Source of the DNA: Oscillospiraceae bacterium
GTDB taxonomy: Bacteria > Bacillota > Clostridia > Oscillospirales > Acutalibacteraceae
Length of the DNA stretch: 45,351 nucleotides
Reading direction: 5' to 3'
Assembly: GCA_015066095.1 (NCBI GenBank)
Contig: SVPC01000014.1
Span: 1-45,351 of the forward strand
Shown here piece by piece: positions 3,551 to 19,247 of the stretch. The notes beneath the pieces are model-generated. The model saw only the letters and a program-made list of their open reading frames with translations, was not told the DNA's origin and searched no databases. Position 1 is the stretch's first letter, and each line of letters begins with the position of its first letter. The translations under genes were made by a program, and so were the position numbers.

Positions 3551-4783
3551 TTATCTTTCAACTTTTGCTTCGCCGGTTTCTACCGTTTTGGCAGTGATGG
3601 TTATTTTCTTTATTGTATTATCCGACGGGGTTTCGAACATTAATGGTTGCAACACGCCTTCAATAATTGAACGAAGACCGCGAGCACCTGTTTTGCGTTC
3701 AATTGTGAGCTCTGCAATTTTTTCAAGCGCCTTTTTATCAAATTTTAATTCTACACCGTCTAACTTAAACAAGGTTTCGTACTGTTTTATAATGGAATTT
3801 TTAGGTTCCAACATAATGCGTACCAAGGTTTCCTTATCCATTCCTGTAAGAGCGGTGATAACGGGCATACGACCAACCAATTCGGGAATTATGCCGAATT
3901 TTACCAAATCTTGATGAGTCGCCTGTGTGCTGAGTGCTTCACTTTCGCGACTTTTTGGTGATTTAACATCTGCGCCAAAGCCCAAACTGCTACCGCCCAT
4001 GCGGCGCTCAATCACCTTTTCAATACCGTCAAACGCACCTGCGCAAATAAACAAAATATTGGTGGTGTCTATCTGAATAAATTCCTGCTGCGGATGTTTT
4101 CTGCCACCCTGTGGCGGAACATTGGCAATAGTACCCTCTAATATTTTAAGAAGCGCCTGTTGAACACCCTCGCCACTTACATCACGGGTGATAGATGCAT
4201 TTTCACTCTTACGGGCGATTTTATCAATCTCATCAACATAGATAATACCGCGCTGAGCCTTTTCAATATCATAATCTGCCGCTTGAATAAGTCGAAGCAG
4301 TATATTCTCGACATCTTCGCCCACATAACCCGCTTCGGTCAAGGTGGTAGCATCGGTAATAGCAATCGGCACATCGAGAGTCTTTGCCAATGTCTGCGCC
4401 AAAAGGGTTTTACCAACACCTGTAGGGCCAAGCATAAGCACATTACTCTTACCGAGTTCTACATCATTATCGGTATTTTTGAAAATTCTCTTATAATGAT
4501 TATACACCGCAACCGACAAGGTTTTTTTGGCTTCATCCTGACCGATAACATACTGGTCAAGTTTTTCCTTTATTTCCTGTGGCTTTGGCAACACAAATTC
4601 TTTTTTGCTTTCCTTTTTTGCACGGCTCTTTTGAGGCATTTCATCTTCAAAAAGCAAACTGTTGCAAAACTGTATACATCTATCACAGATATATACACCC
4701 GGGCCCTCAACAAGACGGGTTACCTCGTCTTGCGATTTGCCGCAAAAGGAACAACAAATTTCCATATCGTTATTTTTAGGCAT
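3551..4783 (-). CDS. clpX: ATP-dependent Clp protease ATP-binding subunit ClpX
   Basis: Hexameric AAA+ unfoldase that feeds tagged or misfolded proteins to ClpP. The N-terminal zinc-binding domain has Cys11, Cys14, Cys33 and Cys36. The Walker A motif GPTGVGKT is at about 119-126 and Walker B IIYVDEID at about 180-187, followed by sensor and pore-loop regions and the C-terminal small domain. The 410 residues fit the usual length. It lies 4 bases downstream of clpP in the same direction with its own site (GAGGT before the ATG). Tig, clpP and clpX form a classic protein-quality cluster. Confidence 0.98.
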
Positions 4784-4787
4784 TGTA

Positions 4788-5369
4788 TTACCTCTTTGTA
4801 ATTACTTTATCAATAAGACCATATTCTTGGGCTTCTTGAGCACTCATAAAGTTATCGCGTTCGGTATCACGTGCAATTTCTTCCAAAGATTTGCCTGTGT
4901 TTTCTGACAAAATGCGGTTTAAGTTCTCGCGAGTTTTTTCAATATGCTTTGCGTGAATTAAAATTTCGGTAGCCTGACCACGTGTGCCGCCCAAAGGCTG
5001 ATGAATCATAATCTCACTATTGGGGAGTGCATATCTCTTGCCTTTTGTACCTGCTGACAAAAGGAACGCGCCCATACTTGCCGCCATACCCATACAAATT
5101 GTGCTAACATCGCACTTAATGTACTGCATTGTATCGTAAATAGCCATACCAGCCGATACAGAACCGCCGGGGCTATTGATGTAGAAACTAATATCTTTGT
5201 CGGGGTCCTGACCTTCAAGATAAAGCATTTGTGCGATAACTATACTTGCGGTAGTATCGTTAACCTCTTCACAAAGCATAATTATACGGTCATTAAGTAA
5301 GCGTGAAAAAATATCATAAGAACGCTCTCCGCGACTTGTTTGTTCTAAAACATAAGGTACTAAACTCAT
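4788..5369 (-). CDS. clpP: ATP-dependent Clp protease proteolytic subunit ClpP
   Basis: Serine peptidase that forms the double-heptamer proteolytic chamber. The catalytic triad is visible: Ser98 in GMAASMGAF, His123 in MIHQPLGG and Asp172 in DTERDNFM. I chose the ATG at 5369 because AAGGAG lies 7 bases upstream and the protein then starts [20 protein letters not shown], the standard N-terminus. Upstream in-frame codons to 5432 run through a hairpin and are not part of the gene. 193 residues, normal length. Probably co-transcribed with clpX, with a partial stop from the hairpin between it and tig. Confidence 0.98.
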
Positions 5370-5397
5370 AGTAATTCTCCTTTTAGATAAAAATAAC

Positions 5398-5434
5398 ATA
5401 TGGGTGTCGGCACCGTTAGTGCCGGCACCCATAT
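5398..5434 (-). terminator. Hairpin between tig and clpP
   Basis: Long stem, arms ATATGGGTGTCGGCAC and GTGCCGGCACCCATAT around a 5-base loop. On the minus strand it is followed by a short T-rich stretch. It may attenuate read-through from tig into clpPX or act as an RNA-processing site; the T run is weak. Confidence 0.6.
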
Positions 5435-5470
5435 ACCGTATTATTAACTAATTCCTAAAATTATAATCAA

Positions 5471-6889
5471 TTATTCTTCTGTCTTTTTAGCGGCTGTCTT
5501 TTTTGCGGTAGTTGTTTTCTTTGCGGCCGGTTTCTTTGCTGTGGTGGTAGTTTTCTTTGCGGCAGGCTTCTTTGCGGGAGCCTTCTTTTCTGCCTTCTTT
5601 TCTACTTCGGTAATAACCGCATTTTCCTTAACAAAGTCAATAGCCTTACCTACTGCAACATCCTTTGCCAATTCTTCGGCGGGGATTGCCTTTTTAACAG
5701 CATCAACTTCCATATTATACTGTTTTGCCATTTCTTCGAAGCGAGCATTAAGGTCTTCTTCACTTGCCTCAATCTTTTCAAGTTCTACAATCTTTTCAAG
5801 TGCTAAACGGAACTTAACCTGACTTTCAGCCTGAGGACGGAAAGTAGCCTTGAAATCATCCATTGTAGTATTTGAATATTTGAGATAAGTCTGTAAATCA
5901 AGACCCTGCATCTGCAAACGATAGCCAAATTCTTCAACACTCTGGTTAAGGCGGCTTTCGAACATTGCTTCGGGGATTTCGCCCTTGATGCTGTCAACAA
6001 TCTGCTGTACGAGTTCGTTTTCTGCTTCTTCTTCGGCAATCTTTGTCTTTTGAGCCAAAGCCTTTTCCTTAAGGTCTGCCTTTAATTCAGCAAGGGTGTC
6101 AAATTCGCTAACATCTTTTGCAAATTCGTCATCGATTTCGGGTAATTCGCGGAACTTGATTTCGTGAAGTTTAATCTTAAATACAGCTTCTTTACCTGCA
6201 AGGTCTTCTGCACCATATTCTTCGGGGAAGGTTACGGTGATATCAAATTCTTCACCGATATTCTTGCCAACAAGTTGTTCTTCAAAACCGGGGATAAATG
6301 CGCCCGAGCCGAGTTCCAAAGTGTGGCCTTCTGCCTTACCGCCGTCAAATGCAACACCATCTTTAAAGCCTTCAAAGTCAATAACAACGGTGTCACCCAT
6401 TTGAGCTGCACGGTCTTCAACAGATACCATACGAGCATTACGCTCTGCCATAGCCTTAACCTGAGCATCAATTTCGCTGTCTTCTACAACTGCCTTAATT
6501 TTTTCTGCTTTAAGGCCTTTGTATTCGCCGATTTCAATTTCGGGATAAGTAGTAACAGCAACCTTAAAGTCTACACCGTCTTCTTTAGAAATAGAAACCA
6601 TATCAAAGTCCATCTTATCGTTAATAACTTTAAGACCTGCTTCGTTTATTGCTTCTTCAACTGCATCGGGATAAAGGATGTTAAGTGCTTCTTCAAAGAA
6701 TGCTTCCTCACCATACATCTTAACTACCATAGCATAAGGAGCTTTGCCCTTTCTAAAACCGGGGATGTTTATTTTATCCTTTTGTTGGTCGAAAGCCTGC
6801 TTTATAGCTTCGCCAAATTTTTGTGCGTCAATAGTAATTTCAAGTTCATATCTATTAGCGCCAAGTTTTTTTGTTTCTTTTAAACTCAT
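5471..6889 (-). CDS. tig: Trigger factor with lysine/alanine-rich C-terminal tail
   Basis: Ribosome-bound chaperone and peptidyl-prolyl isomerase acting on nascent chains. The ribosome-docking signature GFRKGKAP is at 44-51. The FKBP-like domain covers about 163-245 (GDTVVIDFEGFKDG, SGAFIPGFEEQLVG), followed by the helical chaperone arms. The protein has 472 residues, longer than the usual 425-435. The excess is a low-complexity tail from about residue 430 made of repeats such as AKKPAAKKTTT, like the tails of histone H1 and HU-like proteins. The start is supported by GGAGGT 6 bases upstream. A promoter with an extended -10 lies at about 6932. Identity is certain; the tail's role is unknown. 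Confidence 0.96.
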   Translation of the reverse strand: MSLKETKKLGANRYELEITIDAQKFGEAIKQAFDQQKDKINIPGFRKGKAPYAMVVKMYGEEAFFEEALNILYPDAVEEAINEAGLKVINDKMDFDMVSISKEDGVDFKVAVTTYPEIEIGEYKGLKAEKIKAVVEDSEIDAQVKAMAERNARMVSVEDRAAQMGDTVVIDFEGFKDGVAFDGGKAEGHTLELGSGAFIPGFEEQLVGKNIGEEFDITVTFPEEYGAEDLAGKEAVFKIKLHEIKFRELPEIDDEFAKDVSEFDTLAELKADLKEKALAQKTKIAEEEAENELVQQIVDSIKGEIPEAMFESRLNQSVEEFGYRLQMQGLDLQTYLKYSNTTMDDFKATFRPQAESQVKFRLALEKIVELEKIEASEEDLNARFEEMAKQYNMEVDAVKKAIPAEELAKDVAVGKAIDFVKENAVITEVEKKAEKKAPAKKPAAKKTTTTAKKPAAKKTTTAKKTAAKKTEE

Positions 6890-18918: not shown

Positions 18919-18947
18919 TTGACAAACCGTGTTCTGTATATTATAAT
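18919..18947 (+). promoter_or_regulatory. Consensus promoter for the 58-residue membrane protein
   Basis: Perfect TTGACA (18919-18924), a 17-base spacer and perfect TATAAT (18942-18947). This is an intrinsically strong sigma-A promoter that would need a repressor to be kept off; the dyad directly downstream fits that role. Confidence 0.85.
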
Positions 18948-18955
18948 AAGGATAA

Positions 18956-18969
18956 CGAACAAATGTTCG
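18956..18969 (+). promoter_or_regulatory. LexA (SOS) operator
   Basis: CGAACAAATGTTCG is a perfect dyad CGAAC-N4-GTTCG and matches 13 of 14 positions of the Gram-positive SOS box (CGAACRNRYGTTYC). It lies 8 bases beyond the -10 element, over the expected transcription start, and directly before the ribosome binding site. Binding of LexA here would block transcription until DNA damage. I found no other match while reading the window. Confidence 0.75.
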
Positions 18970-18982
18970 GGAGGTAAACAAA

Positions 18983-19159
18983 ATGACTTTTGCAGATATT
19001 ATAATCACTTTATTTGAAATATTGGGCGCTTTGGCGCTTATTTGGTGCATCTTCCATGAAGAGCGTCTTGTAGCCTTTGAAGAAAAGGTTTTTTCATCAT
19101 TCCGTCGTAAGCGTATGCGCGTTATAAATACCGAGCGCACACATAGTTATAACATTTAA
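18983..19159 (+). CDS. Small single-pass membrane protein under an SOS box
   Basis: A 58-residue protein I do not recognise. Residues 5-24 (DIIITLFEILGALALIWCIF) form one membrane helix. It is followed by HEERLVAFEEKVFSS and a strongly basic FRRKRMRV stretch, so by the positive-inside rule the C-terminal two thirds should be cytoplasmic. The start has GGGAGG 8 bases upstream; a consensus promoter, a LexA-type operator and a terminator frame the gene, so it is a complete single-gene unit. By analogy with YneA of Bacillus and SidA of Caulobacter, small SOS-induced membrane proteins that delay division, a similar role is possible. No sequence similarity to either is claimed (it has no LysM domain). 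Confidence 0.75.
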   Translation: MTFADIIITLFEILGALALIWCIFHEERLVAFEEKVFSSFRRKRMRVINTERTHSYNI

Positions 19160-19196
19160 TTTTATTTTTCTCTTTCTTTATGTACTTATTTTTGCA

Positions 19197-19230
19197 ACAA
19201 AGAAGCGGCTCTTTTGAGCCGCTTCTTTGT
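19197..19230. terminator. Bidirectional terminator between the small SOS gene and trxB
   Basis: Long stem ACAAAGAAGCGGCTC/GAGCCGCTTCTTTGT with a 4-base loop and a T run beyond it on the plus strand. Confidence 0.85.
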
Positions 19231-19247
19231 TTTTTATAATACTTTAT

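Follow-up and report, generated by a model that had tools for sequence, protein, structure and literature searches.

The window analyzed here, i.e., the whole stretch of 45,351 nucleotides that forms contig C9 of a 1.32-Mb genome, contains 18.9 kb from its start a short frame preceded by a palindrome of the type recognized by the SOS repressor LexA. This raises two questions: whether this is a genuine gene controlled by LexA, and what its 58-residue product might do upon DNA damage. A sequence-only reading of the locus had proposed that the gene is off until LexA is cleaved and then makes a small membrane protein that would delay cell division or alter the membrane.

A compact transcription unit containing a single gene

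The transcription unit spans positions 18919-19231 and consists of a promoter, a LexA-type palindrome, a GGGAGG sequence, the 58-residue frame, and a strong terminator, as follows.

18919..18947, + strand: sigma-A promoter TTGACA-17-TATAAT, 12/12 consensus match
18919-18924 and 18942-18947, + strand: -35 TTGACA and -10 TATAAT of this promoter, with a 17-base spacer
18956..18969, no strand assigned: predicted LexA operator CGAACAAATGTTCG, covering the predicted start point
18969..18974, + strand: ribosome binding site GGGAGG, sharing the last base of the operator
18983..19159, + strand: frame of the 58-residue membrane protein, ATG at 18983 and stop at 19157-19159
19196..19231, + strand: intrinsic terminator with a 16-bp stem, a 4-nt loop, and a T-run

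All these elements, from the promoter to the terminator, are where the sequence-only reading had placed them. Since the two flanking frames, O-antigen ligase-like and thioredoxin-reductase-like, are both read in the opposite direction, the 58-residue gene is a one-gene unit. About 12 kb from it, the minus strand carries clpX, clpP, and the trigger factor gene as a group (3551-6889). Neighbors are seldom kept across the 53 loci of the own genus described below, with wzy present in one, trxB in four, and queH in two (own locus counted, ~1.5 kb per side), and a conserved neighbor was therefore dropped as a clue to function.

The LexA-type box is conserved across the genus

Taken on its own, the palindrome is not compelling. 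The perfect CGAACN4GTTCG occurs at one site in the genome and a reversed control pattern at two sites, so that the dyad by itself could be due to chance. Within the window, three matches with at most one mismatch were found versus 0.9 expected, which is weakly unusual (5 of 100 shuffles reach three).

It is the conservation of the box among homologues that removes this chance reading. Searching with the single protein, we found matches in 53 of 99 genomes. The own genus accounts for all of them (53/61), with no match in the 38 other genomes of the order. GAACN4GTTC is present shortly upstream of the start in all 53 homologues, as the full CGAAC...GTTCG in 50 and as AGAAC...GTTCG in the remaining three. 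The exact TTGACA-17-TATAAT promoter is found in 51, one more matches it at 11/12 positions, and the last (L011) is cut upstream by a contig end. The GAAC core starts 8-9 or 14-15 bases past the -10 in 49/53, a ribosome binding site-like sequence lies between box and start in 53/53, and a terminator-like hairpin was detected 3' of the gene in 32 of the 52 homologues scanned. Identity among the five closest relatives is high between about -80 and the end of the frame and drops on either side. The frame is under purifying selection, with dN/dS values of 0.09-0.37 in the 14 closest pairs. The possibility of a chance dyad next to a frame that is not a gene is therefore negligible; it is ruled out by the conservation of box, promoter, and frame in the genus and, as described below, of the box beyond it, which the count in a single genome was insufficient to do. 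The 58-residue gene is real.

The gene can nonetheless be absent, since no copy is detectable in three near-complete genomes of the genus (G025, G029, and G044, 94-96% complete) in which LexA is present. A wider profile run over the eight genomes of the genus without a match recovered one fragment at a contig end; many of the sampled genomes are incomplete bins.

Boxed homologues occur in many genera of one bacterial family

A profile built on the genus, used against 396 genomes of the order, matched 13 genomes from four genera, all in the own bacterial family. A second profile, built from 30 proteins, matched 110 of 298 genomes of the family, representing 40 of 111 genera; against 392 genomes of the class, it gave two matches, both in the own genus. 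No relatives outside the own bacterial family were thus found in the order and class samples (396 + 392 genomes). Of the 119 non-genus proteins, 116 reach an E-value of 0.01 with the genus-only profile (database size set to 10,000, here and below) and three fall short. One homologue (L031) comes from Clostridia bacterium isolate RGIG7192, from water buffalo caecum.

The non-genus set in which we looked for the box comprised 118 places in 105 genomes and 39 genera. Within 120 nt upstream, GAACN4GTTC is exact in 53 and has one mismatch in 36, neither being found in 29. A box within one mismatch is thus present in 89/118 places, versus 7 of 590 control stretches drawn from the same loci, none of them exact. 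The position of the 120-nt stretch depends on the start codon assigned to each homologue, for which a script took the nearest ATG. As the loci are interrelated, such counts are not of independent events, and counts per genus are fairer: a boxed copy exists in 36 of the 39 non-own genera, with an exact box in 20. Since the profile was built on the protein only, the box is independent evidence. Whether homologues keep the LexA box and whether the frame is constrained were among the checks proposed along with the sequence-only reading, and both came out in its favor: all genus copies carry the box, at least one copy does in 36 other genera, and the frame is constrained.

The 29 unboxed places, some of which look phage-borne, were counted against the LexA explanation. 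No boxed copy was found in genera g172, g206, and g252. Members of g252 (L166, L169, L179, L188) and g206 (L122, L123, L140) keep the E..FE core and have no recognizable LexA box, and control may have changed in these two genera. Two loci, L041 and L023, display a second box-like site, GAACATTTGTTT, between -35 and -10, and in 7 of 12 non-genus loci inspected by eye CGAACATTTGT is found immediately 5' of the -35; double operators are possible in these loci.

LexA and the other candidate members of the regulon

The own genome encodes LexA, on a separate contig (C18), and a LexA-type box, CGAATAAATGTTCG, precedes lexA. Of 11 lexA loci examined in the genus, 10 have a box within one mismatch. Allowing up to two mismatches, the own genome has 18 forward sites versus 32 for the control, which is mostly noise, and four of these sites are positionally sensible. 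They are before the 58-residue gene; before lexA; directly before the start of a Y-family DNA polymerase gene (dinB-like, with IMS domains), as GGAACAAATGTTCA; and, as CGAACAAATGTTCA, between the -35 and -10 (identified by eye) of a gene encoding a YpsA-family SLOG protein (G000:C19:81459-81899; loci L058, L088, and L268).

The last of these genes suggests an alternative in which the YpsA-family protein is the organism's own SOS division brake, leaving a different role to the membrane protein. Raised levels of ypsA inhibit division in Bacillus subtilis (PMC7376506), which together with the box in the own ypsA-like gene speaks for this scenario. However, a box within one mismatch was found in only 4 of the 22 genus ypsA-like loci examined, versus 53/53 for the membrane protein. 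The idea that SOS control of the ypsA-like gene is conserved in the genus was therefore rejected, and the alternative is very unlikely.

A LexA match, counted at an E-value of 0.001, was found in 266/298 genomes of the family; fewer pass the model cut-off (249/298 here, and 78/98 in the scan that covered G025, G029, and G044). LexA is matched in 106 of the 110 genomes that carry the 58-residue protein and in 160 of the 188 in which it was not found (Fisher p 0.0018, uncorrected for relatedness). One genome without a LexA match (G518) carries a boxless copy (L143), which fits LexA control. Three others that are 93-95% complete (G623, G647, and G677) also have no LexA match, yet carry boxed copies (L152, L111, and L154). 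This counts against LexA control unless LexA was missed or left unassembled in them.

Together, these comparisons indicate that the 58-residue gene is almost certainly under LexA control. SOS control is about as firm as sequence allows, and comparative genomics lends strong support to the regulatory part of the earlier claim, in which the gene is off until LexA is cleaved. A study of the gut SOS meta-regulon worked by COG (PMC3998124) and would presumably not have detected a protein without a COG.

A small membrane protein with three conserved glutamates

Hydropathy analysis shows one membrane helix within residues 1-26. AlphaFold2 predicts two helices, at residues 3-24 and 26-44, with a mean pLDDT of 75 and a pTM of 0.37. 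In the 53 proteins of the genus, Lys and Arg residues average 10 after residue 25 versus 0.04 in residues 1-5. Since they are nearly absent from the N-terminus and abundant after residue 25, the C-terminus is predicted to be inside. The single membrane helix and basic cytoplasmic tail of the sequence-only reading thus agree with both hydropathy and predicted topology.

Three acidic residues stand out. Within the genus, E12 is conserved in 52/53 proteins and both E26 and E33 in 53/53, and in the 89 boxed non-genus copies the corresponding numbers are 76, 84, and 89. E12 lies within the membrane helix (about 3-24), while E26 and E33 are in the second helix (26-44), which is followed by the basic tail. 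With spacings of 14 and 7 residues, the three glutamates would lie on one helical face. The 58-residue product is probably a membrane-located docking protein.

These features bear on another scenario, in which the product would be an SOS-induced membrane-damaging peptide of the TisB/DinQ kind, one that has no target in the divisome but lowers membrane potential, slows growth, and helps damaged cells survive. The protein is small and basic, with one membrane helix and tight SOS-type control on a strong promoter, and DinQ provides a precedent (PMC3567139). However, the conserved E12, E26, and E33 and a second helix past the membrane point to a specific partner. Moreover, conservation among the five closest relatives is confined to promoter and frame, which would leave little room for an antisense RNA or structured leader as in type I toxins. 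About 28 nt separate the predicted start point from the ATG, the flanks are poorly conserved, and no Rfam family matches the window at its gathering score. A membrane-damaging peptide is unlikely.

No match of weight to a known family was found in Pfam, NCBIfam, PHROGs, or PDB sequences. When the 53 members were compared with Pfam, down to matches at an E-value of 1, neither LysM nor a toxin family was found. Weak matches in Pfam (best 0.009, to single members) and NCBIfam (best 0.035), and two matches in a search for solved relatives among PDB sequences (E 1.8 and 4.2), were taken as chance. One phage protein family (phrog_23321) is weakly matched by 15/53 members (best E 0.0041), and none of 10 representatives, nine of them boxless copies, reach it at an E-value of 0.1.

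Terminal alanine in most non-genus relatives

Outside the genus, 86/118 proteins end in alanine (75 of the 89 boxed ones), a residue that accounts for 11% of all residues. The commonest such endings are -VA (40 proteins), -AA (13), and -CA (12). Within the own genus, terminal alanine is found in just 6/53 proteins. The own LexA has GRITA followed by GKPIL at the expected site, and we take the junction between the two to be the position of cleavage. In LexA-like repressors, cleavage exposes ClpXP-dependent C-degrons (PMC5742171). The terminal alanine of most non-genus relatives is therefore a possible degradation tag, and many family members may be built to be short-lived. Such a C-degron consists of small nonpolar residues with Ala in last place, whereas the 58-residue protein of the window terminates in -NI; since the genus mostly lacks terminal alanine, a degradation step is not supported for it.

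Boxless copies in phage-like regions

Some homologues appear to be phage-borne. A boxless copy on an IMG/VR contig (L209:4467-4634, + strand) lies in a phage-like region, next to genes encoding HTH, M78 peptidase (just over the cut-off), Bro-N/ANT antirepressor, PcfJ, and DUF3102 proteins. Two other boxless copies adjoin a DNA methylase (L079) and DUF3102 (L085), respectively. They are similar and lie ~3.4 kb apart on one contig (G249:C36), at about 13.1 and 16.6 kb, and the frame of the second ends after 50 residues. With the genus-only profile, L209 has an E-value of 4e-14 and L079 and L085 are near 1e-7, while the best shuffled peptide reaches 0.61. None of the three ends in alanine.

Searching viral contigs with two of the phage-type proteins revealed no relatives. 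The exact pattern EDKLIAFE has one match in the viral contigs, which is L209, and the ten stretches with EEKLIAFE were all rejected by eye as unrelated proteins. Phages are reported to carry division inhibitors, such as lambda Kil and T5 Hdi (PMC3961180 and PMC10714956), which by analogy would fit, without proving, a shared job for the phage-type copies.

Could the 58-residue protein be a domesticated phage protein that acts for or against phages, e.g., on SOS prophage induction? The three copies in phage-like regions and the E-value of L209 relative to shuffled peptides are in line with this idea, but the family spans 40 genera of one bacterial family, the window's protein has no match in phage records, and 13 other window proteins that were scanned show no phage family. 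We consider a phage-directed role highly improbable.

A working model: delay of division upon DNA damage

Although the transcription unit, its conserved box and promoter, and a protein family under constraint are established by sequence comparison, we infer the steps that would follow, i.e., derepression, topology, partner, division arrest, and degradation. LexA bound to an operator just 3' of the consensus promoter would keep the single gene off, and RecA-driven cleavage of LexA would release it, whereupon a small bitopic membrane protein, predicted to have its N-terminus outside and its C-terminus inside, would be made in a burst. Such tight repression of a consensus promoter would suit a product that is harmful to growing cells. 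E12, E26, and E33 would be aligned along one flank of a helical rod crossing and leaving the membrane, as expected of a docking face. The protein would bind a membrane partner involved in septation or in building the envelope, most obviously an FtsW-type synthase, and this binding would delay division until the damage is repaired. Outside the own genus, the -VA, -CA, -AA, or similar end seen in most genera would be read as a ClpXP-type tag, allowing later clearance.

Delay of division is, by analogy, the likeliest function, and we give it even chances of being correct. It is the best guess by kind since arrest of division is known for a number of small SOS proteins with a single membrane pass (PMC13396833 and PMC6851548). 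YneA binds FtsW via its membrane helix, SosA and SidA being modeled likewise at low confidence (PMC13396833), and a Clostridioides difficile lexA mutant filaments (PMC4689574). YneA itself is above the model cut-off in 0/60 genomes, versus 1/14 control genomes; matches below the cut-off were found in 18/60 genomes, the frames being 208-1434 residues long. Our literature searches turned up no SOS division inhibitor from Clostridia.

The same sequence data would apply to an adaptor that links the SOS response to some other process at the membrane, such as cell-wall elongation or a lipid or respiratory enzyme, and with neighbors so rarely kept, genomic context does not favor division over it. Set against this possibility, which we regard as rather unlikely, are the division-arresting SOS proteins just cited.

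If delay of division is taken as the starting point, a more detailed picture can be drawn, tentatively and with more doubt than confidence. The 58-residue protein would be an SOS checkpoint protein that evolved separately in one clostridial family, inserted in reverse relative to YneA and SosA, acting via a glutamate buried in the membrane and an acidic face in the cytoplasm with no outer domain. In most genera it would be cleared by a cytoplasmic protease reading the terminal alanine, an end similar to those exposed when LexA is cleaved, and phage copies, free of LexA, would hold host division. What goes beyond the sequence-only reading is how the family is distributed, that many members end in alanine, that a membrane glutamate is conserved, and that phage-type copies exist.

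Comparison with known SOS-induced membrane proteins

No earlier description of the 58-residue family was found in the open-access literature searched. If the family is a division brake, its features suggest why it would have been overlooked: it is short, matched by no domain model, and found in one bacterial family only.

YneA of Bacillus and Listeria and ChiZ of Mycobacterium resemble the 58-residue protein in being small, single-pass, and controlled by LexA, which has been shown for YneA and is suggested here by the box. In contrast to them, with their outer LysM and C-terminus outside, the 58-residue protein has no LysM and is predicted to have its C-terminus inside. In Bacillus, yneA adjoins lexA, whereas the 58-residue gene and lexA are on different contigs (C9 vs. 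C18). A relative of YneA or of LysM proteins was rejected, since the 53 members match neither the YneA model, which is not among the six NCBIfam families matched to an E-value of 1, nor LysM, which bears out the earlier statement that the protein is unlike YneA and belongs to no recognized family.

SosA of Staphylococcus, a 77-residue single-pass SOS division inhibitor, also lacks LysM and is turned over through its C-terminus (PMC6851548). The C-terminus of SosA is outside and the protein is a proposed CtpA substrate, whereas the charge distribution of the 58-residue protein predicts a C-terminus inside; in the known Gram-positive inhibitors, the C-terminus is predicted to be outside (PMC6851548). 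The 53 members gave no SosA match among the NCBIfam models, which may or may not include one for SosA. YneA and SosA need their outer parts for activity, and the opposite topology predicted here counts against the division reading. With its C-terminus inside, the 58-residue protein could reach a shared target only via its membrane helix and the cytoplasmic side.

SidA of Caulobacter is 29 residues long. This very small, SOS-induced, single-pass division inhibitor is modeled on TM7 of FtsW at low confidence (PMC13396833). It is shorter than the 58-residue protein and comes from another phylum, the two being compared by description. TisB and DinQ of Escherichia coli are SOS-controlled small hydrophobic peptides, as the 58-residue protein would be, but the latter differs in its conserved acidic positions and second helix, and its gene in a short predicted leader.

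The family offers a concrete one-gene candidate for one large clostridial group, easy to express and test, and the phage-type copies suggest that its target is worth attacking. If it is indeed a division brake, it would show that an SOS brake in the membrane can rely on its cytoplasmic side instead of an outer part.
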